In this document: positions 18,443 to 64,000 of the stretch, piece by piece
How the letters are laid out: the number at the start of each line of letters is the position of its first letter
How positions within the stretch are numbered: the stretch's first letter is position 1
NCBI GenBank assembly: GCA_944324395.1
Contig: CALUWC010000003.1
Location: 62,001 to 126,000, forward strand
Direction: 5' to 3'
Source of the DNA: Candidatus Gastranaerophilales bacterium
GTDB lineage: Bacteria; Cyanobacteriota; Vampirovibrionia; Gastranaerophilales; Gastranaerophilaceae
Length of the DNA: 64,000 nt
Notes under the pieces: model-generated
Database searches by the model: none
What the model saw: only the letters and a program-made list of their open reading frames with translations
What the model was told of the DNA's origin: nothing
Translations under genes and position numbers: made by a program

Positions 18443-18484
18443 ACCTAAATTTATAATGGCTGAAACCAAGTTATAATGCTGTTT

Positions 18485-18522
18485 ATGATATGATATGATA
18501 TGATATGATATGATATGATATA
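18485..18522. repeat. pentanucleotide tandem repeat (ATGAT)7
   Basis: Seven perfect ATGAT units (18485-18519) plus a partial unit, in the 207-base gap between the dehydrogenase and the TPR gene. Each unit junction also reads TATGAT, which resembles a -10 hexamer. It lies about 110 bases upstream of the TPR gene promoter. Confidence 0.95.
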
Positions 18523-49178: not shown

Positions 49179-50300
49179 TTATCCTGTATATCTAAAGTAC
49201 TGGTTTTGTGAATTGTACATGAACGGATTGGTCATTTGGAATAGTGAACCTGTAAAAGGATTAGAATATCCGCCCATTCCGTACATAAACGGATTTGTCA
49301 TTGCCATTCCGCCGAACATAAATGGATTCATCATTCCGTAATTCATATATGGCATTGATGGAAGCATTGGATTGTATGATTGTGCCGGAGTTTGGATATT
49401 AAGTTCTTTTTGCAATCTTTCCAATTCTTTCTGGTACATTTTTTGTTCATCTTCAATTTGTTTCTGTGAAGGCAGAGCAGCTTCTCTGGTGTGAGGGTTG
49501 TCTACTCTTGTGTTATCTTCAGGTTGTACAATAGGTTCTTCAAGAGGGTTTTTGTCAAGTTCTTCTTCAATTGCTTTATTGATATCTTCCATTGTATAAC
49601 CGTTTTGTCGCAGTTGTTCTATTTCTTCATCAGTGAATCCATAGCTGTATAATTTTTCAATATCTTCTTTTTTATATTGTGGTAATTGTGCAATAGCTTC
49701 TTGTTCCGCTTTTTTCTCAGAATAAGTTTTTCCTCTTAATAATGCACCGCCGATTGCACCGACGATACCGCCTATAATGGTTCCGACACCAGGGCAGATT
49801 GCTGAACCTATTGCGGCACCGGCTGCCATAGCTCCAAGTTCTACAGCTGCTCCGCCAACTTCTTTCATTCCGGCACCAAAGCCGCCTTCTTTAAATGCTG
49901 TATATATATTAGGTGCTTCAAATGCAATTGTTAATGCAGCACCTATAAATGGCATTTTCTTGGCAATACCTTTGCCTAAACCCTTTAGGCCGCCCAAAAA
50001 TTTGCTTTTACCTGCTAGTTTTGCCGCATTTGCTCCTTTTTTCATTTGATCAAGATAAAATTTTGGTCTAAGATTGTTAAGGACTCTTTTGGCAAAACCT
50101 CCCTGTGTAGCTTTTTTAGCTATTACATCAGCTTCTAAAGCTTTAGCACCAGCTTTAACCTTTTTAAAAATTGAGCCTTTCTGGCTTCGCATAGCTTTAC
50201 CGATAATTTCTGAACTGTCACCTAACAAAAATTCAGGTGTAACATTCAAGGCTCTGCGTCCGAATGAGATTGCTTTACGTGCAATTGATAATATTCCCAT
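49179..50300 (-). CDS. glycine-zipper protein with NPF-rich tail, paralog A
   Basis: A 373-residue protein of unknown family. Residues ~1-110 are basic and helical ('K-A-G-A-K-A-L-E-A-D-V-I-A-K-K-A-T-Q-G-G'). A hydrophobic Gly-zipper follows at about 130-185 ('A-A-G-A-A-I-G-S-A-I-C-P-G-V-G', then 'I-G-G-I-V-G-A-I-G-G'). An acidic helical part (about 190-295) follows, and the last ~65 residues are a low-complexity Met/Asn/Pro/Phe/Tyr tail with repeated N-P-F ('T-N-P-F-M-Y-G', 'S-N-P-F-T-G'). There is no signal peptide. The zipper could insert in membranes, as in pore-forming or translocator proteins. It is a paralog of the next gene. AGGGGA precedes the ATG. Confidence 0.75.
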   Translation of the reverse strand: MGILSIARKAISFGRRALNVTPEFLLGDSSEIIGKAMRSQKGSIFKKVKAGAKALEADVIAKKATQGGFAKRVLNNLRPKFYLDQMKKGANAAKLAGKSKFLGGLKGLGKGIAKKMPFIGAALTIAFEAPNIYTAFKEGGFGAGMKEVGGAAVELGAMAAGAAIGSAICPGVGTIIGGIVGAIGGALLRGKTYSEKKAEQEAIAQLPQYKKEDIEKLYSYGFTDEEIEQLRQNGYTMEDINKAIEEELDKNPLEEPIVQPEDNTRVDNPHTREAALPSQKQIEDEQKMYQKELERLQKELNIQTPAQSYNPMLPSMPYMNYGMMNPFMFGGMAMTNPFMYGMGGYSNPFTGSLFQMTNPFMYNSQNQYFRYTG

Positions 50301-50386
50301 TTTTTTCCCCTGTGTTTTATATTTTCCCCTATATTTAATTTAAGTTTTTTTGTTTTGTAAAATTGCTTAATTGTAAACAAATATTA

Positions 50387-50421
50387 AAACGAGTCTTTAA
50401 ATAAAATTTAAAGACTCGTTT
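50387..50421 (-). terminator. terminator after glycine-zipper paralog B
   Basis: AAACGAGTCTTTAAAT and its perfect complement with a 3-base loop; a T-rich tail follows on the minus strand. Confidence 0.88.
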
Positions 50422-50442
50422 GGTTCGGGGTTTGTATATTTA

Positions 50443-51225
50443 TTAAGCTAATGTATTAAAGTTCATACCTTGCATCATTATGTCATCAGCAAACGGGTTG
50501 GAAAATGCTCCGTAGTCATACATCGGGTTTGTCATTCCGTACGGGTTATATCCATAAGGGTTGCTGTAAGGATCTGTTCCTGTAAACGGAGGTTGATATT
50601 GCTGTTGCTGAGCTTCTTGCATTGCAGCTAATTCTTCCTGCGCTTTCATTTCTGCTTCAGCTTTTTGCTCGGTATAAGTTTTACCTACGACTTTGCTTGT
50701 TAACCATTCACCAGCCATCCACCCTACGATAGTTCCGATACCAGGACAAATTGCTGAACCTATAGCTGCACCTGCTGCACCGCCTGCTAATCTTGTACCT
50801 GCTTTGGCGATTTCTTTAACACCTTGTCCAATACCCTGTTCTTTTGTTGCTGTCCATATATTTGGAAGTTCAAACAAAATTGTTGATGCGGCTGCAATGA
50901 ATGGCATATTTTTGCCAAGTCCTTTGAATAACCCTTTTAACCCGCCTAGGAATTGATTTTTACCTGCGATTTTTGCAGCTCTTGCACCAGCTTTTGTTAA
51001 TGATGGAATTCGTCCTAAATTTGCTGTTACTCTTTTGAAAAATCCGCCTTGTGATAATTTTTTTGCGGCAATATCTGCTTCTAATGCTTTAAAACCGGCT
51101 TTTCCTCTTGTTAAAGCTGATCCTTTAGTTGCACGCATTGCTTTACCTGCAACTTCTGCTCCGTTTCCTAAAATAGCTTCTGGCAAAATGTTGATAATTC
51201 GTCTGCCAATTGATCCAATACTCAT
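50443..51225 (-). CDS. glycine-zipper protein with NPF/NPY-rich tail, paralog B
   Basis: A 260-residue paralog of the gene at 49179. It shares the basic N-terminal module ('G-N-G-A-E-V-A-G-K-A-M-R', 'F-K-A-L-E-A-D-I-A-A-K-K-L-S-Q-G-G-F', 'K-N-Q-F-L-G-G-L-K-G-L'), the 'N-M-P-F-I' segment and the zipper 'G-A-A-G-A-A-I-G-S-A-I-C-P-G-I-G-T-I-V-G'. It lacks most of the acidic middle part and ends in a Tyr/Asn/Pro tail (D-P-Y-S-N-P-Y-G-Y-N-P-Y-G). GGTGG precedes the ATG. It has its own terminator. Function unknown; as with paralog A, a membrane-inserting or secreted effector-like role is only a hypothesis. Confidence 0.75.
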   Translation of the reverse strand: MSIGSIGRRIINILPEAILGNGAEVAGKAMRATKGSALTRGKAGFKALEADIAAKKLSQGGFFKRVTANLGRIPSLTKAGARAAKIAGKNQFLGGLKGLFKGLGKNMPFIAAASTILFELPNIWTATKEQGIGQGVKEIAKAGTRLAGGAAGAAIGSAICPGIGTIVGWMAGEWLTSKVVGKTYTEQKAEAEMKAQEELAAMQEAQQQQYQPPFTGTDPYSNPYGYNPYGMTNPMYDYGAFSNPFADDIMMQGMNFNTLA

Positions 51226-51312
51226 AACTTTACCACCTTTTACACATTAAAAATAACCTACACTTTTATAAAAAAAATTTCCGATACGTAATTGCCTAAA
51301 ATGGAAATAATG

Positions 51313-51326
51313 TTAACAATTGTTAA
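51313..51326. promoter_or_regulatory. 14-base palindrome upstream of glycine-zipper paralog B
   Basis: TTAACAATTGTTAA, perfect, about 90 bases before the start at 51225. Could be an operator for the paralog B gene; unproven. Confidence 0.3.
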
Positions 51327-51340
51327 TGTTATTTTTCATA

Positions 51341-51365
51341 AAAAAATACCACTTTTATCAAGTGG
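51341..51365 (-). terminator. terminator after coiled-coil protein gene
   Basis: On the minus strand, CCACTT / AAGTGG with a 5-base loop followed by TATTTTTT. Confidence 0.8.
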
Positions 51366-51415
51366 CAGGGAAAAGTTACGAAAATTAAGTGTAGGGGAAT
51401 TATAAAATATATTTT

Positions 51416-52879
51416 TTATGCATTAAATATGTTAAATGACTTTTCAACGTTTTTACTGATTACACTCTTAACTGAATCGTATTCTGTTTGAAGAGCATTA
51501 TGTTCTGATTCAAGTTTGTTTAACTGCAGGTCAAATTGTTTATCCTGACTTTCCAGATTATCCATTTGAGTCTGATAAACCTGTTCTGCAATTGCCATTG
51601 CTGCTGAGTCTTCTTTTTCTGTTATAGATTCATCACTGTTGAGTGTTGTATTTACAAATGCTTTGTCTGTTGTTGAATAGTAAGACAGTGTCAGAGCTCC
51701 GGCTTTCAATTGTTTTACAAACCAGTCTGTATCTTTTAGGTTTGTTTCATTATCGGTTGTAGTGTAGCCGCTTTTGCTTATTGCATTAAATATGTTTTTG
51801 TAATAGTTTACAGCTTCCGCATCATAAGTAAGAGTGCCTGTGCTGTTTGAAACAGAATTGTTATAATAAGCTTCTGTCAATGCAACAGCATAGTCATATA
51901 GTTCTCTTTGTGCTGTTGTAGCACCTTCATAGTTTAACGCTTTAGATTCTTTTGTTACATCATAGCTTACCCCGCCTTCATCAACATAGGTATTGTTGTT
52001 CTGCCAGGTCAGGTAATTTTTTTGTTCTTCACTGACTAATGCATCACCATTAGCATCTGTATCTGCATATAATACATTTGTTTCAACTTCTTCGCCGTCC
52101 ATATTTGTATATGTATATGTTCCGGCTTCAGTATTATATGTTACATTATCTACAACATGATAAAGATCGGTTCCTTCCTGATCTTCTGTCTGGTATCCTA
52201 CTTGAATTACCAGTTCGCCTGTTGTACGATCTTCAACCTGAAAAGCTTGCAAAAGATATCTTTCTTTATAGTATCCGTTGCTGTCTTTGTATAAATTTAA
52301 TATATCTCCGTTTACATCTGTTGTGTAAGCCGTGTTGTATGTTACATAACCGTCAAATGAATCCTGGCTGAATGATGTGTAATCAAATCCTAATACGTGC
52401 TGGCTGTCCATATCATCAATACTTTTACCTACTGATGCCAGATATTGGTCCCACGCATCATGAACGGCTTCTTCTGATGCTGAATGTTTTGTTACATCAA
52501 TATTTGCCTGTGTATAACCTAAAGATTTTAAGAAAATGTTAAAATCTCCATTTCCGGCTTCATAGGCTTTTGCAATTGCAGATGTGACCAGGATCTGTCC
52601 TTTGTTATCTTTTACAAGATATTGTTTTCCGTTTGCAACGGAATTTAGTCCTGTCAATTGATTGTATGTTAAATCTGCATAATTTGCTTCTGCACCGTTG
52701 TAACCTGTCAGAACCTGATATTTTGTAGCACTTAATGCTTCAAGGTATGCATCATTTATCTGTTCTGAATTGTCAGACAGACGCTGTTTTGAATAAGCAA
52801 GTGACTGCTGTTCCATTTCATTATTAGATAAACGAGCAGTTATACTTAACAATCTGGCTTGTGATGCTGCCATTCCCAT
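51416..52879 (-). CDS. lineage-specific protein with conserved N-terminal helix and coiled-coil C-terminus
   Basis: A 487-residue protein I cannot assign. It opens M-G-M-A-A-S-Q-A-R-L-L-S-I-T-A-R-L-S, followed by a Gln/Ser-rich helix; this opening recurs, to my recollection, in many Melainabacteria proteins. The middle (about 70-330) is Tyr/Thr/Asp/Asn-rich and beta-like ('Y-V-T-Y-N-T-A-Y-T-T-D-V-N-G-D'), resembling extracellular filament or adhesin domains. The last ~60 residues form a coiled coil ('D-N-L-E-S-Q-D-K-Q-F-D-L-Q-L-N-K-L-E'). A helix-variable-helix layout of this kind is also seen in flagellin/hook-filament proteins, but there is no signal peptide and no sequence proof. AAGGAA precedes the ATG. 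It lies beside the two glycine-zipper genes. Confidence 0.75.
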   Translation of the reverse strand: MGMAASQARLLSITARLSNNEMEQQSLAYSKQRLSDNSEQINDAYLEALSATKYQVLTGYNGAEANYADLTYNQLTGLNSVANGKQYLVKDNKGQILVTSAIAKAYEAGNGDFNIFLKSLGYTQANIDVTKHSASEEAVHDAWDQYLASVGKSIDDMDSQHVLGFDYTSFSQDSFDGYVTYNTAYTTDVNGDILNLYKDSNGYYKERYLLQAFQVEDRTTGELVIQVGYQTEDQEGTDLYHVVDNVTYNTEAGTYTYTNMDGEEVETNVLYADTDANGDALVSEEQKNYLTWQNNNTYVDEGGVSYDVTKESKALNYEGATTAQRELYDYAVALTEAYYNNSVSNSTGTLTYDAEAVNYYKNIFNAISKSGYTTTDNETNLKDTDWFVKQLKAGALTLSYYSTTDKAFVNTTLNSDESITEKEDSAAMAIAEQVYQTQMDNLESQDKQFDLQLNKLESEHNALQTEYDSVKSVISKNVEKSFNIFNA

Positions 52880-52994
52880 AGTTTCTAACAGTTCCTTTCA
52901 ATAATTTTCGTATCTGTTATTCTTAATTACGGCTTATTTGTAAGAAACTTTAGTATTTTTTATGGGTTTGTTAAAATTTCGTAACATTTTAATG

Positions 52995-54866
52995 CTAGGA
53001 AACTTCAATTCCTTTTTCTGCAAAATAAAGTCTGAAATAAAAACATGCAACATGCTGGATTGAATCGACTCTTATCCATTGACGGGTTGCTTTAAATCGA
53101 ATTGCTCCTTTAGACTTTTCAGGATTTTTATGTGCATAGTTATTTTTATCTGAATTGTATAAAATCATCTGGGATTTAGCTGTTTTTCTGCAGGCTTCCA
53201 AAATATGTTCTGCAAGATTTTCTTCTCCGAGATTTTTTGCAAGGTAATAAGCACTGATAAGACCTTCCGAGCGTGAACCGTCAGGGTAAAAATGATCCCC
53301 GTAATTGTAATAATACGCTCCTTCATAATCAATAAACGGTGAATCATTTTCATTGTACATTTTGCTTATCATCGTTTTTGCATCATTAAATACAAAATTT
53401 ATATAATTATCTTTTCTAAATTCAGGATTTTTACACCATTCTTCGATTGCCTGCATAAGCCATGCATCAGATGGCAGTGATGTAAATAAATCTTTATAAA
53501 CTTTAGGTCTTTCATCTACAATCCAGTCAAGAGCAAGTGTGCATTTATCCTTAATTTTCGAAACAAGTTCTATATCATCTTCAAAATTATTTGCAACTAA
53601 TCCAAGACCCAGCAAGGCTTCTCCCGGATAATAAAAAGAAAAGGTATTGCGGCGTTCTTCATCTGTCATCTCAATAAGCGGATTTCCGTCTTGAAATTTC
53701 GGATTTATATAATAACCGAGCATTTCTCCTGTTTTATAGATTCTTGATAAAAGGTGTCTGCTGTATTTCTTTATATATTCATCATAAGTTTTATCATTTG
53801 TTTCGTTTCTGTATTTCATCATTGCAATAAGAATCATTCCGGTTCCGCCGAGTTTTGCTTTTTTGTTATAAAAAGCATAGGCTGCTGTTTCTCCGTCAAC
53901 TATATGTTCTTTTGTAATGGTAGTTATAAAATCAATACCTTTCCTTGCCGCTTCCAGATATTTTTTATTCTTTGTTAATTGATAAGCTCTGATAAGTGTT
54001 ACAATTCCTCCGCAATGTCTTAAGTCATTGTAATACAGATTATCTTCAGGTGCATTCGGGTGTTCATGGTCTTTGTAATTGTCTTCTTTTGCATCGTAAT
54101 AATACAAATATCTTCCATCATCTTTTTGATTTTTTATTATCCAATCAGTACCGGCTAATGCAATCTCTTTAATTTCTTCCGGTGAATATTCATATAATAC
54201 GTTCCCTCTGTACAGGGGTAATATATCATCTTTGTAGGTTATGAATGCATGACTTTTTATAATATAGCATTCATAATCAGCCATTTTTAATATATTTATT
54301 CTTTCCGAAATTTTATTTGTAATATTTTTTATATGAGTTTTCCTTAAAATAGTATTTAATGCGGATTTTAAATCCATCTGGCTCAGAACCCAGGCATCTG
54401 CCGGCATGTAAATATATGGTGTTTTATTAAGTATCAGTTTAATTCCGGTTACTCCTGGTTCAAATCTATTTGGGGTGAATGCGGCAAGATTAATTTCTTC
54501 AATTTTTACAGGGATTTGCTCTGTTACAAATTCAAATAAAATTCTGCAATTATCTTCATCTGCAATGTTGAAATTTTTAAAAGCAGGATTTGTTTTTATT
54601 TTTTCAATATCTCTGTTTATAGATTCATCAAGAGTGTTTCTGCAAGAACCCCAGCGGATTTGTTTTTCGCCTGCCTGAAACAGAGTTATATATGTGTATG
54701 TTAAGTCTTTATTATAATTTATAATTCCGTCTAAATTCAATTCTGTTGAACTAACTGTATCTCCTGTAATAAAAGATTTTCTAATTCTTTTTAATAATTC
54801 CTTTATTGCAGAAAAATCCTGTTTAAAATATTCTCTTTCTTTTTCATTTTCAATTGAAAAATTCAT
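52995..54866 (-). CDS. AMMECR1-like plus six-hairpin (alpha/alpha) domain protein
   Basis: A 623-residue soluble protein with two parts. Residues ~1-200 resemble AMMECR1 proteins: 'G-S-C-R-N-T-L-D-E-S-I' where AMMECR1 has its G-C-I-G-T, and 'F-E-P-G-V-T-G-I-K-L' followed by 'M-P-A-D-A-W-V' and 'A-L-N-T-I-L-R-K-T-H-I'. Residues ~235-620 contain repeated helix pairs with aromatic/acidic loops ('W-I-I-K-N-Q-K-D-D-G-R-Y', 'L-R-H-C-G-G-I-V-T-L-I-R-A', 'Y-Y-P-G-E-A-L-L-G-L'), the pattern of six-hairpin glycosidases, lyases and epimerases. The substrate is unknown; no signal peptide is present, so it probably acts in the cytoplasm. GGGTGAG precedes the ATG. Confidence 0.72.
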   Translation of the reverse strand: MNFSIENEKEREYFKQDFSAIKELLKRIRKSFITGDTVSSTELNLDGIINYNKDLTYTYITLFQAGEKQIRWGSCRNTLDESINRDIEKIKTNPAFKNFNIADEDNCRILFEFVTEQIPVKIEEINLAAFTPNRFEPGVTGIKLILNKTPYIYMPADAWVLSQMDLKSALNTILRKTHIKNITNKISERINILKMADYECYIIKSHAFITYKDDILPLYRGNVLYEYSPEEIKEIALAGTDWIIKNQKDDGRYLYYYDAKEDNYKDHEHPNAPEDNLYYNDLRHCGGIVTLIRAYQLTKNKKYLEAARKGIDFITTITKEHIVDGETAAYAFYNKKAKLGGTGMILIAMMKYRNETNDKTYDEYIKKYSRHLLSRIYKTGEMLGYYINPKFQDGNPLIEMTDEERRNTFSFYYPGEALLGLGLVANNFEDDIELVSKIKDKCTLALDWIVDERPKVYKDLFTSLPSDAWLMQAIEEWCKNPEFRKDNYINFVFNDAKTMISKMYNENDSPFIDYEGAYYYNYGDHFYPDGSRSEGLISAYYLAKNLGEENLAEHILEACRKTAKSQMILYNSDKNNYAHKNPEKSKGAIRFKATRQWIRVDSIQHVACFYFRLYFAEKGIEVS

Positions 54867-55012
54867 TTGCTCACCCTGTTTAAATCTTTTATTATTTTAG
54901 CATTTTGCAGAGATTTTACATCCATCTTTTTGATGGATTAATATTAACATTCGTAACATTTTTGCTTGTAAGTAAACAATATGATAATTTGTTAATGAGA
55001 AGAGGATAGTTT

Positions 55013-55885
55013 ATGAAAAATATTGTTATATATACCGACAAAAATTCTTCATCAATTGCAGATATTGTTTCTTCTATTGAGGATTCAAATGTAAGACTTG
55101 AAAATGCTGCAAATTTAAAGGATTATGAAACTCTGAATCCGGGTGTAATTATTATTGAAAATGTTCCGGATATTAAAGATGTTTTAATGGTTACAAAGTT
55201 TAAGTTTCCTATTTTGTTTATTGGTGAAACTTTTAAAGGTTGTACAGTACGAGCAGTAGCTTTTGATTATATAAAAACTCCGGTTGACAATCAGGAATTG
55301 GTAGTTAGAGTCAGAAATATGCTGAAAATTAAAGAGCTTAGAGATAAATTAAAAACTCTTTCTACAACTGATGAATTGACAGGTTTGCATAACAGAAGAT
55401 ATTTGCTTGAACGTATGGAGCAGGAAATTTCCAGAGCCAAACGTTATACTACTCCATTATCTTTACTGTTATTTGATTTAGACTTTTTCAAAGTTGTAAA
55501 TGATATTTACGGCTATGAATGGGGCGATGTGTTATTGCGTTCAATTGCGGATAAGTTAAAACAGCTTATCAGAAAAGAAGATATTTTAACCCGTTACGGT
55601 GATGAGGAATTTATTGTTGTTCTTCCGAATACTTCTGAAGATAATGCATTTTTATTTGCAGAAAGATTCAGAAAAGATATTGAAAAAATGGAATTTATTC
55701 CGGCCGGAGAAGAAGAAAGACATCCGATTACAATTTCGGGCGGTATTGCAACCTTCCCTTGTCTTCCTGATACTGAAGAAGATGCAAATACTATTATAAG
55801 ATATGCCGAACACGCATTATATAATGCTAAAAAACGCGGCAAAAATAAAATTGTACAATTTTCACATTTGAATTTAGGTGAATAA
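55013..55885 (+). CDS. GGDEF-domain protein with degenerate receiver, variant G-D-E-E-F signature
   Basis: A 290-residue protein. Residues 1-110 look like a receiver fold ('I-V-I-Y-T-D-K-N' to 'Y-I-K-T-P-V') but lack the acidic pair and clear phospho-Asp, so phosphorylation is unlikely. A short helix leads to a GGDEF domain ('T-D-E-L-T-G-L-H-N-R-R-Y-L', 'D-L-D-F-F-K-V-V-N-D', 'L-T-R-Y-G-D-E-E-F-I-V-V-L'). The domain would make cyclic di-GMP, but the signature is G-D-E-E-F in place of G-G-D-E-F, and the usual G-H after the N-D loop is G-Y-E. Activity is therefore uncertain; it could be a c-di-GMP or GTP-binding effector. No I-site R-x-x-D is obvious. GAGAGGAT precedes the ATG. Confidence 0.88.
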   Translation: MKNIVIYTDKNSSSIADIVSSIEDSNVRLENAANLKDYETLNPGVIIIENVPDIKDVLMVTKFKFPILFIGETFKGCTVRAVAFDYIKTPVDNQELVVRVRNMLKIKELRDKLKTLSTTDELTGLHNRRYLLERMEQEISRAKRYTTPLSLLLFDLDFFKVVNDIYGYEWGDVLLRSIADKLKQLIRKEDILTRYGDEEFIVVLPNTSEDNAFLFAERFRKDIEKMEFIPAGEEERHPITISGGIATFPCLPDTEEDANTIIRYAEHALYNAKKRGKNKIVQFSHLNLGE

Positions 55886-56174
55886 TTCTGAAATTTTCAG
55901 GATTAAAAAAAGATCCTTTCTGAACACTTACATAGTGTAAATCTGGTTAATAGGCGGTATATTGATATCGCCTTTTATTTTTGCATAAGATTTATTATCA
56001 GAAAATAATAATTAAATTAAAATAAAAGCGAGTAATCAATGTAAGCGAAACAACAACAAAAGCGGGTATTGTTTGAACGTCAAAAAATAGATGCTAAAAT
56101 AAATTTAGAATAAGTAATTAAGTGAGTTTACCCGCTTCTATAATTGGGTGCTATGCGTACCTAAACCCGCACCT

Positions 56175-56212
56175 AATTTCTTTCTTTTTGGATAAGCAAA
56201 AAGAAAGAAATT
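56175..56212. repeat. 16-base purine/pyrimidine inverted repeat
   Basis: AATTTCTTTCTTTTTG and its perfect reverse complement around the 6-base loop GATAAG. A further AAGCAAAGAAAGAAA follows. No typical U-tail beyond the stem itself. Confidence 0.75.
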
Positions 56213-56241
56213 AAGCAAAGAAAGAAAAACTATCGACCAAA

Positions 56242-56329
56242 TAGCGTCAGTAAAATTCAACCTGAGCCGGGTTAACTCGCCAAGGCTCAAACAAAACCCG
56301 GCTTGATACTGTTTCGTTAACTGACGCTA
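56242..56329. other. 88-base multi-stem intergenic element
   Basis: The outer stem TAGCGTCAGT (56242-56251) pairs with ACTGACGCTA (56320-56329). The inner stem GCCGGGTT (56266-56273) pairs with AACCCGGC (56295-56302), with an alternative GAGCC/GGCTC pairing (56264-56268 with 56284-56288). The internal stems are much more GC-rich than the surroundings. It could be a non-coding RNA, an REP-like repeat or the end of a decayed mobile element. Confidence 0.55.
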
Positions 56330-56400
56330 ATTATATTTTCTGATAATAAATATTATGTATATGCTTGTGTTTTAACTTTTTTTACATCAGAGAGCATTTT

Positions 56401-57085
56401 TTATTGAGGTGTCTTTTTGTTAAATTTATATGCAGTTTGTTTATCCCAGCTGATATTATGTTTTATAACCTTTGCAGGGTTTCCGGCTATGATGGTATTT
56501 CGTTCGTTAAATTGTTTGGTTACAACTGAAGATATTCCAACAATACTGTTATCTGGTATGACTACACCTTTTAATATTTTTGTATTTTGTCCAAGCCATA
56601 CGTGGTTTTTTATTATAATCGGTTTTGACAAATTGAATGCTCTTGTGGGGTTATTTATTTCAATCAGAGCGTGTCCGTCTGTTGGCCAAATATCTATACC
56701 GTAGGAAAACATACAATTATCCCCAATTGTTATTGAGGAATTTTCTTCTTTTAAATGAAATTCTACACCATGGCAGCTGAAATTATTTCCTATTTTTAAA
56801 TGTTGATTATCGCCTGAATAACAGGTAATTTTGCAATTTTTGTATTTTCCACTTCCAAGATTTATACTATTATTTTTCCCTGTAATATTAATTGTTGAAT
56901 TTTTAAATTTTGCATTTTTGTGTATTTTTATTGTTGTGTTTTGGGCTTTGTTCCATTTAATTTTCAAACCGTATGTATGTATGTATGTATGTATGTATGC
57001 CGCTTCCGGAGTCATCAACTATTTCGATTTTGTTATTGTTTATTTCAGGAAATATTTGTCCAAAAAATTTTTTTAGAAAATTCAT
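56401..57085 (-). pseudogene. left-handed beta-helix acyltransferase, split out of frame by a tetranucleotide tract (phase-OFF)
   Basis: The natural start is the ATG at 57085, overlapping the upstream gene's TGA as ATGA. It reads M-N-F-L-K-K-F-F-G-Q-I-F, then 'N-N-K-I-E-I-V-D-D-S-G-S-G', and enters seven copies of ATAC (56971-56998), after which it ends at a stop after R-F-E-N (42 codons). The rest continues in another frame ('Y-G-L-K-I-K-W', then hexapeptide-repeat turns, 'H-V-W-L-G-Q-N-T-K-I-L-K-G-V', 'G-I-S-S-V-V', 'G-N-P-A-K-V'), the LbH pattern of sugar O-acetyltransferases. The N-I-E-I-V...L-K-I segment is normally continuous in this family. Six or nine tract copies would join the two frames. 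An in-frame TTG/ATG near 57018 exists but has no Shine-Dalgarno sequence. Expected role: acetylation of a surface glycan. Confidence 0.88.
56971..56998 (-). repeat. tetranucleotide tract, seven copies of ATAC
   Basis: GTAT x7 on the plus strand (ATAC on the coding strand), inside the N-terminal coding part of the acyltransferase. Three units encode the 4-residue period I-H-T-Y. A unit gain or loss shifts the reading frame by one. Confidence 0.95.
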
Positions 57086-57828
57086 TTTAAATTTACTCCG
57101 TAGCCGAACATTGCAAAATCATATTTAACAGGGTCTTGCGGGTCAAATTTTTTCAAGTTATTTGTCAGTTCAATTACTGCTTTAAAATCATTTGCATTTC
57201 TTGTCAAAAGCCCCATTTTTCTGGAAATTCTTGCTACATGTACATCTAATGGTATCAAAAGATCTGAAGTCGGCATAAAGTTCCATATACCAAAATCGAC
57301 CGGACCTTTTCTTACCATCCAGCGTAAATACATGCACATTCTTTTCATAGCTCCGCCTTTTTGCGGATTTGGAATCATAAAGTAAAAACCTTGTCCCGTA
57401 TTTCCTTTTGTCCTTGCATAAAAATAATCAGTTACGGGAACAAACATATTATTTTTTACCGGATTTTGGTATCCGTATTTGAATAATTCTTCAAGTCCGC
57501 CGTCTTTTGTATATAATTCTTTCAATATTAAAAAAATCTGTGTAAAATCCTCGCTTTTCCCAAATCTATAGTTAAAATCTCCTATCATCCCCGATTCGAA
57601 ATTTTGGATAAAGTTCAGCGGTTCATTTTGTGCAAGGTTAAATAATTCATCAAGCTTTTTGGTGAATACATCTCGCCTGCCGTATGCCACAAGCGATGCA
57701 ATAAATCCTGCAAGTTCAATATCTTTTTTGTTTGTAAACCTGTTTGGAAATCTTACCGGATCATCTTTTATAAAGTCTTTTGTTTCGTAAGCTTTAACAA
57801 GCTTATCTAATTCTGATTTTGTTATCAT
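57082..57828 (-). CDS. TIGR02757 (DUF2400) family protein
   Basis: A 248-residue soluble protein. The landmarks 'D-P-V-R-F-P-x-R', 'E-L-A-G-F-I-A-S-L-V-A-Y-G-R-R' near the N-terminus, 'M-C-M-Y-L-R-W-M-V-R' and the closing 'V-K-Y-D-F-A-M-F-G-Y-G-V' match the family. It is widespread in Bacteroidetes and other gut bacteria and has no established function; its helical, DNA-glycosylase-like fold prediction is from memory and uncertain. The stop overlaps the acyltransferase start by ATGA, tying that gene's expression to this one. The start lacks a Shine-Dalgarno sequence and a TAAAAT box lies 6 bases upstream. Confidence 0.88.
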   Translation of the reverse strand: MITKSELDKLVKAYETKDFIKDDPVRFPNRFTNKKDIELAGFIASLVAYGRRDVFTKKLDELFNLAQNEPLNFIQNFESGMIGDFNYRFGKSEDFTQIFLILKELYTKDGGLEELFKYGYQNPVKNNMFVPVTDYFYARTKGNTGQGFYFMIPNPQKGGAMKRMCMYLRWMVRKGPVDFGIWNFMPTSDLLIPLDVHVARISRKMGLLTRNANDFKAVIELTNNLKKFDPQDPVKYDFAMFGYGVNLK

Positions 57829-57834
57829 ATTTAT

Positions 57835-57840
57835 ATTTTA
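57835..57840 (-). promoter_or_regulatory. -10 element of leaderless TIGR02757 gene
   Basis: TAAAAT on the minus strand ending 6 bases before the ATG at 57828. The region is very AT-rich, so this is weaker evidence than the TGG-type elements. Confidence 0.35.
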
Positions 57841-57851
57841 TATCAAAATTA

Positions 57852-58328
57852 TTAACCGAGAACAAAAGAATGGAACAAATATGCATAACAAATTCCAAAA
57901 ATAGCACCGACAAATACTTCAAGCGGAGTATGTCCCAACAATTCTTTTAATTTGCCTCCTGCAGCCTGCATATCATGGTGGTAAAAATCGTCCATCATTC
58001 TGTTTAAACATGCCGCGGTTTTTCCGGCAGCACGTCTTAAGCCTGCAGCATCATACATTATAATCAAAGAAAAACCCAGAGCAGTTGCAAAAAGACAAGA
58101 GTCATAACCTTTCAATATCCCGATAATAGTAGATAATGCCATTACTCCTGCAGAATGAGAACTCGGCATTCCGCCTGTTGTTGAAAATATTTTAAAATTA
58201 ACTTTTTTATTTTTTATTGTAAATAAGATAAATTTAATAACCTGGGCAAAAAATGCTGATGTAACTGCACAAATGATAACTTCGTATCCGTTATTCAAAA
58301 TAGCCTGTCTGGCTGTTTCTAAGTCCAT
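57852..58328 (-). CDS. divergent PAP2-family (DUF212) membrane protein
   Basis: A 158-residue membrane protein with about four hydrophobic helices. Conserved features are 'Q-V-I-K-F', 'G-G-M-P-S-S-H-S-A-G' (the PAP2-like active-site motif), 'D-A-A-G-L-R-R-A-A-G' and the closing 'E-L-L-G-H-T-P-L-E-V-F-V-G-A'. This is the 'divergent PAP2' (YuiD) group; related PAP2 enzymes dephosphorylate lipid phosphates such as undecaprenyl pyrophosphate. Its ATG overlaps the prenyl synthase stop by one base (TAATG). Coupling to a prenyl diphosphate synthase makes a role on prenyl phosphates plausible, though unproven. Confidence 0.9.
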   Translation of the reverse strand: MDLETARQAILNNGYEVIICAVTSAFFAQVIKFILFTIKNKKVNFKIFSTTGGMPSSHSAGVMALSTIIGILKGYDSCLFATALGFSLIIMYDAAGLRRAAGKTAACLNRMMDDFYHHDMQAAGGKLKELLGHTPLEVFVGAIFGICYAYLFHSFVLG

Positions 58329-59212
58329 TAAATACCTACTCTCTTTTTAATACTCTTAATCATATCATTAAATATTTCTGATTGGAGATTTTGCTTAATC
58401 ATTATATCACAGCATTTTTCAAATAAGCAAGATAATTTACATTTAGCTTCATCAATTCCATATAATGATACATAAGTTAATTTACCTTCTTCTTTGTCTT
58501 TGCCTAAAGTTTTTCCCATTTCTTCAAATGTTGAAATTTCATCTAAAATATCATCTGCTATCTGGAATGCAAGTCCGAAGTTATGAGCAAATTCTGTAAC
58601 CGCTTTTAATTTTTCATCATCAGCATTTGCAATGATTGCACCCGTTCTCATTGCAAGTTTAAACAAATCGGAGGTTTTATGTATATGCAAATATTCAAGA
58701 GTTTTTTCTTTGTCTTTAATAACGGTATTGTTTTCAGATTCGATATCCACAACTTGTCCAGCTATTACACCTCTTGCTCCTGCAAATTGAAAATATTCGT
58801 TTAATACTCTTATTAAAACAGAAGGGGAAAGATTTTCGGAATATTTTGTAATAATTTGCGGAGCATAGGTTAGTAGAGCATCTCCTGCCAAAACAGCAAT
58901 TGCTTCCCCGAAAACTTTATGGTTTGTTGGTTTTCCTCTCCGGTAATCATCGTTGTCCATACATGGTAAATCATCATGTATCAGAGTTTGAGCATGCAGC
59001 ATCTCAATAGCACAGGAAGTGGGGATTGCATCTTCTATTTCACCTCCCAAAAGTCTGCAGGTTTCAAGACATAATATTGGACGAAGTCTTTTCCCCGGCA
59101 AGGTTACGGTATATTTCATTGATTTAAATATACTTTGCGGGTATTCAACCTGTATATATTCATTTAATTTATCGTTAATTATTTCAATGTAATCATTCAT
59201 CTGCATGGTCAT
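58328..59212 (-). CDS. ispA: short-chain polyprenyl diphosphate synthase
   Basis: A 294-residue trans-prenyltransferase, which condenses isopentenyl diphosphate onto allylic diphosphates to give farnesyl or geranylgeranyl diphosphate. The first Asp-rich motif is H-D-D-L-P-C-M-D-N-D-D with two residues between the Asp pairs, as in bacterial FPP synthases. The second is 'I-A-D-D-I-L-D'. 'G-K-R-L-R-P' and 'G-Q-V-V-D' are also present. Chain length is not certain. The start may be the ATG at 59212, 59206 or 59200; the first has AAGGAA 4 bases upstream. It overlaps rsgA and ends in TAATG with the PAP2-like gene. Confidence 0.94.
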   Translation of the reverse strand: MTMQMNDYIEIINDKLNEYIQVEYPQSIFKSMKYTVTLPGKRLRPILCLETCRLLGGEIEDAIPTSCAIEMLHAQTLIHDDLPCMDNDDYRRGKPTNHKVFGEAIAVLAGDALLTYAPQIITKYSENLSPSVLIRVLNEYFQFAGARGVIAGQVVDIESENNTVIKDKEKTLEYLHIHKTSDLFKLAMRTGAIIANADDEKLKAVTEFAHNFGLAFQIADDILDEISTFEEMGKTLGKDKEEGKLTYVSLYGIDEAKCKLSCLFEKCCDIMIKQNLQSEIFNDMIKSIKKRVGI

Positions 59213-60194
59213 CTATTTCCTTATAAATCATTTGTTTTTGCGTATTTCTTGAAGCTTGTCTTTTTTTGCCGCTGATTTTAGCCTGAATTTTATTATCTTT
59301 AATTTTGTGTGAAGTTTCTTTTTTTGTTCCGTTATATTTAATTCTTTCTTTGTATTCTATAGCTTCATTTACAAATTCAATATAACTTTCATATCTGGTA
59401 GAATCTATTTTTTCAATATTTTGCAAAACAGCACAGCCGTCTTCATTTTTGTGCAGACAGTCAGAATATTTGCAATTTTTGCTATACTGTGAGATTTCGT
59501 TAAAAAGCAAATCAACATCTTTTGGAAGTAAAAAATCAAATTTAACATTGCTGAACCCCGGGGTATCAACGATTGCTGTATTTTTATCTATGCTTATAAT
59601 TTCACAGTGTCTTGTTGTATGTGTACCTCGGTTTAATTTTTCGCTGACTTCTTTTGTTCTTAGGTGAATATTTGGGTTCAGAGCATTTATCAGGCTGGAT
59701 TTTCCGACTCCTGAATTTCCGCACAGAGCAGAAATTTTTCCTTTTAGAAGTTTTTTAAATTCACCTAATCCTTTTTTTTCGGTTGCAGATGTAAATACTG
59801 TTTTGTAGCCCAGTTTTCCGTATATGTAATTGATTTTTTCTTGTGCAGTTTGCTCAAGTCCTAAATCTTCTTTGTTAAAACATAGAATTGCGGGAATTTT
59901 ATAATATTTTGCAAGTGAAACATATCGGTTAAGCTGGTGAAAATCAAGATCGGGGTGTTTCAATGCACTCACTATAACAATTTGATCTATATTAGCAACA
60001 GACGGCCTCGGAATAAAATTCTTTTTGGGCAGGATTTTTGAAATGGCTCCATTATCAAATTCTGCAAAATCACCTACTACAATTTTTATTTTTTGTTTTT
60101 TTAAGACTTCACGAATTTTACATTCAAAAGTTTGACCGTCTTTTTGTATGTAGTAAAAATCAGAATGAATTTTATAAATTTGCCCTTGTGCCAT
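59193..60194 (-). CDS. rsgA: ribosome small subunit-dependent GTPase A
   Basis: RsgA is a circularly permuted GTPase that checks late 30S assembly. It has 333 residues. It opens with an OB domain, followed by G4 'C-F-N-K-E-D-L', G1 'G-N-S-G-V-G-K-S-S', G2-like 'T-H-T-T-R', G3 'D-T-P-G-F', and a C-terminal zinc site C-K-Y-S-D-C-L-H-x5-C. The last ~60 residues form a Lys-rich tail ('K-I-S-G-K-K-R-Q-A-S-R') that is longer than usual. No Shine-Dalgarno sequence is apparent; TACACT lies 9 bases before the ATG, so a near-leaderless start is possible. First gene of the rsgA-ispA-PAP2 operon. Confidence 0.95.
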   Translation of the reverse strand: MAQGQIYKIHSDFYYIQKDGQTFECKIREVLKKQKIKIVVGDFAEFDNGAISKILPKKNFIPRPSVANIDQIVIVSALKHPDLDFHQLNRYVSLAKYYKIPAILCFNKEDLGLEQTAQEKINYIYGKLGYKTVFTSATEKKGLGEFKKLLKGKISALCGNSGVGKSSLINALNPNIHLRTKEVSEKLNRGTHTTRHCEIISIDKNTAIVDTPGFSNVKFDFLLPKDVDLLFNEISQYSKNCKYSDCLHKNEDGCAVLQNIEKIDSTRYESYIEFVNEAIEYKERIKYNGTKKETSHKIKDNKIQAKISGKKRQASRNTQKQMIYKEIDDHADE

Positions 60195-60321
60195 AACAAA
60201 ATAAGTGTACTAAAAAGAATTGCGGTTTGCAAATTTTGAACTGTTTTTAAAAATCTTTATATTTGATTGAAAAAAGTATAACTGTTTAGTACAATGTGTT
60301 TGTAAATTATAGGGAGTTTTT

Positions 60322-61041
60322 ATGCCGGAAGTACAGAAACGAATTTTAATTGTAGATGATGACGATGAAATCAGAGAATTATTAGAGTTTGATATTGCAA
60401 GCAGCGGATATTTTGTTGATACCGCAAAAGACGGTTTGGAAGGTTTAAATAAAGCTTTAAACAATACGTATGATTTGATATTGCTTGATGTTATGATGCC
60501 TAAGATGAACGGGTTTGATGTTTGTAAAAATATAAGACAGGCTAAACTTGCAATTCCAATACTAATGCTTACCGCAAAGGGTACAATTGATGATAAAACC
60601 AGCGGGTTTGATTGCGGAGCCGATGATTATCTTGTCAAACCATTTGATATTCAGGAGGTTTTATTAAGGATTAGAGTTCTTCTAAGGCGTAATGCAGTAA
60701 ATGTAGAAGATGAATCTGCATTATCTAATGAGGTTTTAAAGTGCGGTGATATAGAGATATTTCCGGAATCTTTGGAATGTGTAATTGTAAATAGAAGGGT
60801 TAAATTAACTCCTACTGAATTTGAAATTTTGTATTGTTTGATGCAGCATTTTAATAATCCGGTTACTCTGGCTACTTTGCTTGATGAAGTTTGGGGATAT
60901 GACAGTAATGAAGATGTAAGGATGCTCAGGGTTCATGTGGGCGGGTTGCGTAATAAAATTGAATCTAATGTAAAAATTCCGAAATATCTTCACACTGTTA
61001 CAAATGTAGGTTATAAATTGACTCCGTTTGCACAAGAATAA
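60322..61041 (+). CDS. OmpR/PhoB-family response regulator
   Basis: A 239-residue regulator. The receiver domain (1-120) has the acidic pocket V-D-D-D-D, phospho-acceptor Asp56 in 'L-L-D-V-M-M-P', Thr84, and Lys106 in 'V-K-P-F'. The C-terminal winged helix (about 135-235) is intact: 'L-T-P-T-E-F-E-I-L', then 'R-M-L-R-V-H-V-G-G-L-R-N-K-I-E', then the wing 'T-V-T-N-V-G-Y-K-L'. It is phosphorylated by the sensor kinase encoded 2 bases downstream. The targets are unknown. AGGGAG precedes the ATG. Confidence 0.95.
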   Translation: MPEVQKRILIVDDDDEIRELLEFDIASSGYFVDTAKDGLEGLNKALNNTYDLILLDVMMPKMNGFDVCKNIRQAKLAIPILMLTAKGTIDDKTSGFDCGADDYLVKPFDIQEVLLRIRVLLRRNAVNVEDESALSNEVLKCGDIEIFPESLECVIVNRRVKLTPTEFEILYCLMQHFNNPVTLATLLDEVWGYDSNEDVRMLRVHVGGLRNKIESNVKIPKYLHTVTNVGYKLTPFAQE

Positions 61042-61043
61042 AT

Positions 61044-62726
61044 ATGAAAAAATACAGCTACGAATTAAAAAAATTAAAAATAATTGAGCAGATTGCAATA
61101 GTATTTTTTATTGCTGTAGTAATTCCGATGTCTATAAGCGGATTTATCATAAATAATATTAATCAGCAGTCAGTCAGGCATCAATTGAGAGAATCTGCAA
61201 TTCTTGTCGCCAGTATGGTATCAGATGAGATGGATTTTTATATAAAAAATAATGAAACTACACTATCGCAAATTGCTGATGCTCTGGAATATCTGCCTGC
61301 AAAAAGCCAGAAAAATAAATTTATAAAAGAAGTTGCTAAAAAATATCCTAACTGTAAAGATATTGTAATTGTAAAAAGTCAAAATGAACTTGAACAAATT
61401 ACTGATAGTGCAAGATTAAATGAACAGCCAATACTTTCAACACAGATGAATGACGGTTCATTTCTTGTTGTAACTTATGATGCCAGTAATCTTGACAACC
61501 AGTTGTTTAAATCTTTGGAAAATGATAACAGACAAATTTATATAATGGATGAAAACAACCATTTGATTGCTTCTCATAATTTTACCCCTGATATGTTTAA
61601 AGAAACAATTGATCTTTTGCCGGAAGATATGATTCCTGAAGTTCCGGTAATTTTCGGGGATGAAAAAAACAGGCCGATTGTATATATAAGACGTACAAAT
61701 CCTGACTTTACCATTGTTGTAAATACTACCGAGAATATTACAAAACATGCGATTATTGATAACAGAGTAAAAATAATAATTTCGGTTTTAGCTGCAATCT
61801 TATCAATGATGGTCTTAGTAGGTTTTTATATTTATTATCTATATATTAATATAAGACAATTATTTAAAGCTGTAATTGCACTTTCAAAAGGTAACTACCA
61901 GCGTCAAATAAGACTGTTGAGTACATCTTTTACTCCTTATGAAATGGTTTTTCTTGCAAATGAATTTAATAATATGGCTTCAGAAATTCATAAATCATAT
62001 ATTGAACTAAAACGAAAAAATAAAGAACTGAAAGAGTTAAACGAATTCAGGTCAAACTTGCTTGATACGGTAAGCCACGAGTTAAGAACACCTTTAACAA
62101 GTATTCAGGGCTATACTTCCCGTCTTATGAGGCAGGATATTGTTATTGATGAAGAAACCAAACAAAAGTCTTTAAGAATTATAAAAGAACAATCCGAAAA
62201 ATTGAAGCGATTGATTGATGATTTACTTACTATTCCTGATATTGAAGGTATGCGTTTGCGTACTGTGAGCGAAAATATCTGGCTGAATAAAGTTCTTGAA
62301 GAAGCTGAACTCCTGTTGAGAAAAAGGGACGGGCATGAAATTATTGTAAATATCAGTGATGATTTCCCGAAAGTTACAGCCGACAAGGGCCGTCTTGAAC
62401 AGGTATTTGTTAATCTGTACGAAAATGCGATAAAGTATTCTTATCCTGACACTCCTATTCTTGTTGATGTTGAGCAAAAAGAAGATAAAGCTGTGATTAA
62501 AGTAAAAAACAGTTGCGATAAAATCCCGAAAAAGAAACTTGATACATTGTTTGAAAAGTTTGTAAGACTTGATGATGAAATGACACGAACAACAAGAGGT
62601 ACGGGGCTGGGATTGTTTATTGTAAAGGGTTTAATTGAAGCGATGGAAGGGTCTATAACATTATCTTCAGATGATAATTTCGGTTTTTGTGCAACTATTA
62701 CATTGAATATAGCGGACGAAGATTAG
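61044..62726 (+). CDS. sensor histidine kinase
   Basis: A 560-residue membrane kinase, partner of the upstream regulator. TM1 is at about 18-38; a periplasmic sensor of ~210 residues, likely a double-PAS (dCache-type) fold, follows; TM2 is at about 248-270; then a HAMP-like region. The DHp domain has His345 in 'V-S-H-E-L-R-T-P-L'. The ATPase domain contains the N box 'N-L-Y-E-N-A-I-K-Y-S' and 'G-T-G-L-G-L-F-I-V'. The ligand is not predictable from sequence. Only 2 bases separate it from the regulator gene, and tadA follows 2 bases after its stop. Confidence 0.95.
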   Translation: MKKYSYELKKLKIIEQIAIVFFIAVVIPMSISGFIINNINQQSVRHQLRESAILVASMVSDEMDFYIKNNETTLSQIADALEYLPAKSQKNKFIKEVAKKYPNCKDIVIVKSQNELEQITDSARLNEQPILSTQMNDGSFLVVTYDASNLDNQLFKSLENDNRQIYIMDENNHLIASHNFTPDMFKETIDLLPEDMIPEVPVIFGDEKNRPIVYIRRTNPDFTIVVNTTENITKHAIIDNRVKIIISVLAAILSMMVLVGFYIYYLYINIRQLFKAVIALSKGNYQRQIRLLSTSFTPYEMVFLANEFNNMASEIHKSYIELKRKNKELKELNEFRSNLLDTVSHELRTPLTSIQGYTSRLMRQDIVIDEETKQKSLRIIKEQSEKLKRLIDDLLTIPDIEGMRLRTVSENIWLNKVLEEAELLLRKRDGHEIIVNISDDFPKVTADKGRLEQVFVNLYENAIKYSYPDTPILVDVEQKEDKAVIKVKNSCDKIPKKKLDTLFEKFVRLDDEMTRTTRGTGLGLFIVKGLIEAMEGSITLSSDDNFGFCATITLNIADED

Positions 62727-62728
62727 TT

Positions 62729-63160
62729 ATGATTGATTTTATGCAGCTGGCAATTGAAGAAGCGTTAAATTCTGACGGAGATATTCCTGTCGGAGCTGTT
62801 ATTGTTCATAATAATGAGGTTTTAGCATCTGCTTGTAATCGAAAAGAAAAAGATAATGATATAACCTCTCATGCAGAAATTCTTGCAATCAGGCGGGCAG
62901 AAAAGGTTTTAAATAACTGGCGTTTGGATAACTGCGATATGTATGTAACTCTTGAACCCTGTCCTATGTGCGGCTGGGCAATTATACAATCAAGAATAAA
63001 AAATTTATATTTTGGAAGTTATGATGCAAATTACGGAGCATTCAGTTCTAAAATAGATTTACGCTCACTTGCACAGGGTGCAAAATTAAACGTTTATGGC
63101 GGTATAAAAGAGCAGGAATGCGATAAATTTTTAAAAGATTTTTTTATTAAAATACGTTAA
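62729..63160 (+). CDS. tadA: tRNA adenosine deaminase
   Basis: TadA deaminates A34 of tRNA-Arg(ACG) to inosine. 143 residues from the ATG at 62729 (M-I-D-F-M-Q-L-A-I-E-E-A); 14 open codons before it overlap the kinase gene. Zinc motif H-A-E (~residue 50) and P-C-P-M-C-G (~residue 80), with 'D-I-P-V-G-A-V-I' and 'N-N-W-R-L' nearby, are diagnostic. A guanine deaminase would lack the N-W-R-L segment. It directly follows the kinase gene in the same transcript, perhaps by coupling. Confidence 0.95.
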   Translation: MIDFMQLAIEEALNSDGDIPVGAVIVHNNEVLASACNRKEKDNDITSHAEILAIRRAEKVLNNWRLDNCDMYVTLEPCPMCGWAIIQSRIKNLYFGSYDANYGAFSSKIDLRSLAQGAKLNVYGGIKEQECDKFLKDFFIKIR

Positions 63161-63227
63161 TAGTTTGGTAAAATGCATTTATAGAATTTATAATAATTTC
63201 AAATTTATTAATTTAAAGGAGTGTTAT

Positions 63228-63977
63228 ATGGATAATAATTCTAATACTGAAAATAATCTTCAATATCAGATTGAAGAAGAGCTGCATAAGTTTAACTGGG
63301 GTGCTTTTTTTCTTAATTTTGTGTGGGCATCATTTAACGGTGCCTGGAAAGAATTTTGGCCGTCATTTGTCGTAATGTGTATTCTCTTTCTTCTTTCAGA
63401 TATCCCGTTGATAGGTTTATTATTTGGACTTTTGAATATTTTAATGGCTGTATATGTCGGCAGGCATGGTAATGAATGGGCCTGGTATGGTAAAAAATGG
63501 GAAAGTCTGGATAAATTTACATCTGTACAAAAAGTTTGGGCTGTAGCTTCTCCTTTTGGATTTATTATTTTATGGAGTGTTATTCGTATATTTATTTTAG
63601 TGATTTCTACATATATGTTTCTTCCTCAAGTTAAAGCTATAACAGCAGAAGCAGAAAATATAAGTAAAACGGCTGTTTCAAAAATTGTTGCAGCTCCTAA
63701 TTACCAAAATTTTGCCTCAGGTGAAGATATCGTAGACTTTTTGAGTAATCTGGATCCGTATATAAAATATATGCCGGATAACAAAAGTGTTATTGCAGCT
63801 GAAAAAGGTCCTTATCAGGCTGTTCTTACATTTGAAAAGAACGGGGATTGTTCATTGGAGCAAAAAAACTGTTATATATTATACAGTATTAAGGTTAATA
63901 ATAAATTGAAACCTCCTATAAATAAGATATATTTTGATGATAAAGGAGGAGTTCAGATAGAAGATCTTCCGGGTTAA
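63228..63977 (+). CDS. membrane protein with DUF2628-like N-terminus
   Basis: About 249 residues from the ATG at 63228 (M-D-N-N-S-N-T-E-N-N), 7 bases after AAGGAG; the frame is open back to 63165 but without a Shine-Dalgarno sequence. A membrane region at about 22-135 has several helices with aromatic-rich loops ('N-W-G-A-F-F-L-N-F-V-W-A-S-F-N-G-A-W-K', 'W-A-W-Y-G-K-K-W-E'), which resemble DUF2628/DUF805-type proteins. The soluble C-terminal ~100 residues have two Cys ('G-D-C-S-L-E-Q-K-N-C') and a beta-rich pattern, resembling pilin-like or surface domains. Function unknown. It is probably near the end of the tadA transcript. Confidence 0.75.
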   Translation: MDNNSNTENNLQYQIEEELHKFNWGAFFLNFVWASFNGAWKEFWPSFVVMCILFLLSDIPLIGLLFGLLNILMAVYVGRHGNEWAWYGKKWESLDKFTSVQKVWAVASPFGFIILWSVIRIFILVISTYMFLPQVKAITAEAENISKTAVSKIVAAPNYQNFASGEDIVDFLSNLDPYIKYMPDNKSVIAAEKGPYQAVLTFEKNGDCSLEQKNCYILYSIKVNNKLKPPINKIYFDDKGGVQIEDLPG

Positions 63978-64000
63978 TAAAAACTTTTAATTTTGCTTAT

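Follow-up and report, generated by a model that had tools for sequence, protein, structure and literature searches.

NeuO of Escherichia coli K1 is a left-handed beta-helix (LbH) O-acetyltransferase, encoded on the prophage CUS-3, that is phase-variable through translated repeats in the 5' coding part of its gene, with repeat numbers in multiples of three giving the full-length enzyme and other numbers truncating it (PMC3046976, PMC13001214). His147 and Trp171 of NeuO have been reported to be catalytically important, and neuO is OFF in 65.6% of 64 complete K1 genomes that carry the gene. OatWY of Neisseria meningitidis serogroups W-135 and Y has the same LbH fold, and oatWY is also phase-variable. 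In Haemophilus influenzae, the lic genes and oafA contain four-base repeats within the 5' coding part of surface-glycan genes, and CAAT is among the Haemophilus repeat units. The gene oafA is a phase-variable acetyltransferase gene (PMC9558356). Campylobacter and Helicobacter have poly-G loci. Work on surface glycans that vary in phase through repeats has dealt almost wholly with pathogens. A 2025 review points out that the restriction to pathogens may partly reflect database bias (PMC11868660). The locus described here would be a switch of an established type, and for its lineage searches of the open-access literature found no described phase variation, in line with an earlier note on this DNA that knew of no such locus there.

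An acetyltransferase gene on the minus strand of the window (the whole 64,000-nucleotide stretch of DNA analysed) carries an ATAC tract in its coding region (Table 1), and we consider it very probable that this is a phase-variable (contingency) locus with the tract as its switch and surface-glycan O-acetylation as its candidate function. Like NeuO, the product is a predicted LbH O-acetyltransferase that conserves the counterparts of His147 and Trp171, and the translated repeats in the 5' coding part would likewise give full-length protein at multiples of three and truncated protein at other numbers. The two enzymes are distant relatives. The NeuO unit is AAGACTC, encoding RLKTQDS at the very N-terminus, whereas the ATAC unit encodes IHTY after about 29 residues of the ATG frame, and NeuO is prophage-borne, whereas the gene described here appears to be a chromosomal gain of about 0.7 kb with no phage gene seen beside it. 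OatWY shares the fold and is the best solved match, but comes from another organism and acceptor context. H. influenzae is similar in its four-base units within the 5' coding part of surface-glycan genes, and its CAAT unit recurs in relatives of the present genome; however, the lineage is unrelated, and an ATAC unit and an LbH enzyme contrast with oafA, whose product is an acyltransferase-3 protein. The Campylobacter and Helicobacter loci have a parallel in poly-G runs 9-13 long, which occur in surface and glycan genes of the present genome, in its genus and in homologues of the enzyme, whereas the gene itself uses ATAC and the poly-G tracts of the genus lie in a conserved TAACC context.

Table 1. 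Features of the acetyltransferase locus, in window coordinates.
Feature	Position	Strand	Basis
Putative phase-variable LbH O-acetyltransferase gene, ATG57085 to TAA56401, OFF as assembled	56401..57085	-	Frames, copy-number series, PDB and family matches
LbH acetyltransferase domain	56401..56970	-	Pfam Hexapep and NCBIfam sugar O-acetyltransferases (both sub-threshold), PDB 2wlc, 3jqy
His codon, aligned with NeuO His147	56671..56673	-	Alignment
Trp codon, aligned with NeuO Trp171	56596..56598	-	Alignment
(ATAC)7 simple sequence repeat, putative switch	56971..56998	-	Repeat count, TRF, genome-wide tract count
Premature stop TAA of ATG frame at n=7	56957..56959	-	Sequence and translation
5' coding part, ATG frame: family N-terminus with NKIxIVD motif	56999..57085	-	Homologue alignment, HMM gain of ~10 bits
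Start ATG, overlapping upstream stop as ATGA	57083..57085	-	Sequence; GGAG 10 nt upstream
Alternative TTG start	57016..57018	-	In frame with domain only at n=7 (or n=4, 10)
Upstream gene DUF2400/TIGR02757	57082..57828	-	Stop-start overlap with switch gene; family matches
Segment present here; close relatives lack it between the DUF2400 and GGDEF genes	~56359..57085	-	Comparison with G041, G030, partly G042

On the minus strand, ATG57085 begins MNFLKKFFGQIFPEINNNKIEIVDDSGSG, which is followed by the seven ATAC units (56998-56971). TRF reports a tract of 29 bp and 7.25 copies, and the coordinates given in the earlier note for seven units inside the coding region are exact by both sequence and TRF. 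Translation from ATG57085 stops after 42 codons at TAA 56959-56957, which reproduces the length stated previously, while the hexapeptide domain occupies a different open frame that reaches TAA 56403-56401. When the copy number was varied in silico (n=3-11), 3, 6 and 9 copies gave one joined frame of 222, 226 and 230 aa, and 4, 5, 7, 8, 10 and 11 copies gave truncated products of 37-46 aa. A change of one unit thus converts between full-length and truncated product, and the series agrees with the claim that six or nine copies join the frames and eight does not, adding three to the joining numbers. With n=7, the assembled genome represents an OFF cell, as had been proposed; because TTG57018 is in frame with the domain at this copy number, OFF strictly means OFF for the ATG57085 product.

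As judged from its relatives, the gene encodes an LbH O-acetyltransferase. Pfam Hexapep matches the enzyme under its cut-off, as do the NCBIfam models for WbbJ and for maltose and galactoside O-acetyltransferases. In a comparison with the PDB, the top solved relatives are two polysialic acid O-acetyltransferases, with 2wlc (OatWY of Neisseria) matching at 2.5e-28 and 3jqy (NeuO of E. coli K1) at 1.2e-21. These matches and the aligned His and Trp put the product, by sequence, with the LbH O-acetyltransferases of the OatWY/NeuO type, and kinship with polysaccharide O-acetyltransferases places the gene, by homology, in the surface-structure or glycan-modifying class. It lies outside any recognisable polysaccharide cluster within the window. 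As to polysialic acid or a sialic-acid capsule as possible acceptors, the genome has one weak partial match to NeuB, which covers 94 of 241 positions and scores 26.8 bits where the cut-off is 22.1.

The favoured start is ATG57085, whose overlap with the upstream stop had been noted correctly, the upstream gene being a DUF2400/TIGR02757 gene. When scored with an HMM of homologues taken exclusively from other genomes, the bare domain reaches 241.9 bits and the six-copy protein 251.8, with 248.4 for three copies and 247.2 for nine. The real N-terminus outscores 1000 of 1000 shuffled N-termini (maximum 249.5) and, narrowly, 1000 of 1000 peptides from random genomic ATGs (maximum 251.5), and the linker of the six-copy form aligns without a gap to the top homologue, L182 (43% identical). 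The view that the protein parts on both sides of the tract fit one continuous family N-terminus is therefore borne out by the gain on joining, by both sets of controls and by the gap-free junction. It could instead be that the functional start is TTG57018 and that seven copies are the ON state, the ATG57085 frame being unused; in that case the tract might still act as a switch, but with different copy numbers for ON. From this TTG at n=7 the frame is open through the tract for 205 aa and contains the whole domain. However, nothing resembling a Shine-Dalgarno sequence precedes TTG57018, in contrast to the GGAG ahead of the ATG, and a protein begun at the TTG is without the N-terminal motif of the family and scores 245.0 bits, below the six-copy protein. 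We regard this alternative as improbable. With ATG57085 as the start, the 205-aa product that TTG57018 could yield at n=7 means that the OFF state may be leaky.

The length of the tract was compared with the other tandem tracts of the genome, counted in a sample of 1.84 of 1.89 Mb taken as stretches. Among tetranucleotides there are 5502 two-copy tracts, 32 three-copy tracts, none of four to six copies and one of seven, so that (ATAC)7 is the sole tetranucleotide tract of at least four copies. The maximum in three order-5 Markov genomes was four copies. The length of (ATAC)7 is far outside the genome's own distribution and beyond chance. The sole pentanucleotide tract of at least four copies in the same sample is also in the window: a perfect (TATGA)7.6 at 18484-18521, intergenic between SDR-like and TPR-like genes (named by eye) and upstream of a TATAAT-like sequence that precedes the TPR-like gene. 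Imperfect hexanucleotide repeats (ACAGAT/ACTGAT/GATACT) run near a contig end of this genome (C17:151-284).

The strongest support for reading the tract as a switch is the recurrence of repeats in homologues of the gene. Repeats within the gene that would shift the frame on gain or loss of one unit were found in 5 of the 48 homologue loci scanned, all in the same bacterial family. L182 has G13 and is ON (263 aa), L187 has 17 AGAC units immediately 3' of the ATG and is ON (262 aa), L013 has G12 and is ON (209 aa), L195 has G11 and is OFF, where 10 or 13 would be ON, and in L197 the run is G10 and lies close to the 3' end. No repeats were present in 105 kb of control loci around the DUF2400 gene. 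By the rate in the present genome 0.27 repeats would be expected in the homologue loci, with a Poisson p of about 9e-6 that is approximate because tract content varies between genomes. Decay of the gene, with the frameshift merely happening to fall in the repeat, would account for the broken frame of the assembly and for the absence of the gene from the three closest species checked. On the other hand, the tract is the only lesion, the 190 codons downstream of it are open and the catalytic residues are kept, and repeats in the ON state among homologues are not predicted by decay. The differing units, the similar N-terminal places and the occurrence of both states fit selected switching better than decay, which we consider very unlikely. 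Scarcely credible is an error of assembly that conceals an in-frame tract, since, although repeat lengths can be misassembled, 28 bp is well within the length of a single short read, and the tract is anomalous at any exact length, so that such an error would affect whether the locus is called ON or OFF but not what kind of locus it is.

We propose that, in the phase-variable locus, slipped-strand mispairing in the ATAC tract alters the copy number. At multiples of three, ATG57085, the family N-terminus and the LbH domain would be in one frame and the full enzyme would be made, and at other numbers translation from the ATG would end some 40 codons in. The most likely role of the enzyme is to transfer acetyl from acetyl-CoA to a sugar of a capsular polysaccharide or lipopolysaccharide by O-acetylation, both the activity and the acceptor sugar being deduced from the relatives, and cells of one population would then display acetylated or unacetylated surface glycan. 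If this is true, NeuO-like switchable acetyltransferases recur in several genera of a lineage of probably harmless gut bacteria, where one could ask whether phage pressure and host immunity suffice to select for switches of this sort in the absence of virulence.

The switching predicted in the earlier note draws support not only from the independent repeats of the homologues but also from similar tracts in other glycan and surface genes. Three other genomes, of 383 in the order, have long ATAC tracts. One of these tracts, of 18 copies, lies right after the GTG start of an Acyl_transf_3 gene, which is OFF and would be ON with 17 or 20 copies. The two species with the other tracts have them towards the 3' end of a methyltransferase gene, in 13 and 20 copies, and their methyltransferases are 98% identical; a DegT-type aminotransferase gene follows the methyltransferase gene in one genome (G185), and no above-threshold orthologue of the methyltransferase was found in 11 further genomes. 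CAAT tracts occur in four genomes. In one genus they follow the ATG of a small gene family; the other two settings, both identified by eye, are a surface-like protein and the region near the 3' end of a putative glycosyltransferase gene. CAAT was considered as a composition-matched control unit and was rejected because long CAAT tracts themselves occur in surface-type genes, and ATAC reversed is a rotation of ATAC, so the reversed unit is uninformative as a control. In the small gene family (MKLQSINQSINQ...; L210, L211 and L215, genus g34), CAAT stands right after the ATG in 12, 5 and 10 copies, and these numbers apparently put the genes in different frames.

The present genome itself has five poly-G tracts of 9-11, with runs of seven or eight almost absent, all five being outside the window (C1:7306, C1:198920, C5:22280, C6:12321 and C12:39195). 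Three are 30 nt past the ATG of pilin-like genes, with an N_methyl match in the two tested. A fourth is 28 nt past the ATG of a gene of about 4000 aa that by eye resembles an autotransporter gene, and the fifth is at the 3' end of an Acyl_transf_3 gene. All four of the 5' tracts are assembled OFF. It is conceivable, and in our estimation somewhat short of probable, that pilins, autotransporters and glycan modification are under the control of repeat switches throughout this bacterial family, that one family of acetyltransferases has captured repeats repeatedly and independently, and that a conserved poly-G/TAACC DNA element, about 45 bp long, introduces switches into genes that are otherwise unrelated.

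The poly-G tracts in this genome and at loci L230-L259 share the context C-G(9-12)-TAACC, after which conservation is weak over about 30 bases. This context occurs in pilin-like, giant autotransporter-like and LbH acetyltransferase genes and at the 3' ends of Acyl_transf_3 and cytidylyltransferase genes. G9TAACC is present in 12 of 46 genomes of the genus and in 14 of 288 of the family, and the reversed sequence occurs in none of the genus and a few times in two genomes of the family. One genome of the same genus (G014) has 32 occurrences of G9TAACC, many of them near contig ends. This context may be a DNA-level element.

The host genome is 1.9 Mb and AT-rich, and its rpoC is split into an rpoC1 of 573 aa followed by a 1290-aa ORF read as rpoC2. 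This split is a cyanobacterial hallmark, and together with the size and AT-richness of the genome it suggests gut Vampirovibrionia, probably Gastranaerophilales. In two close relatives (G041 and G030, with DUF2400 proteins 83% and 79% identical), the interval from the DUF2400 gene to the GGDEF gene that follows it contains no acetyltransferase gene. In a third (G042, 88%), the 117 bases from the end of the DUF2400 gene to the end of the contig match the arrangement of G041 and not the acetyltransferase gene. The simplest reading of this comparison is a recent gain of about 0.7 kb. The neighbours are DUF2400, DUF212 and GGDEF genes, and no phage gene was seen adjoining the acetyltransferase gene. 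The flank of the tract has no exact match among viral contigs, Rfam gave no RNA family in 50000-64000 of the window, and a scan of genome contigs returned one distant relative only. Between the acetyltransferase and GGDEF genes, a stretch of about 210 bp (56139-56349) holds smaller internal repeats and matches the G041 intergenic region at 89% identity.
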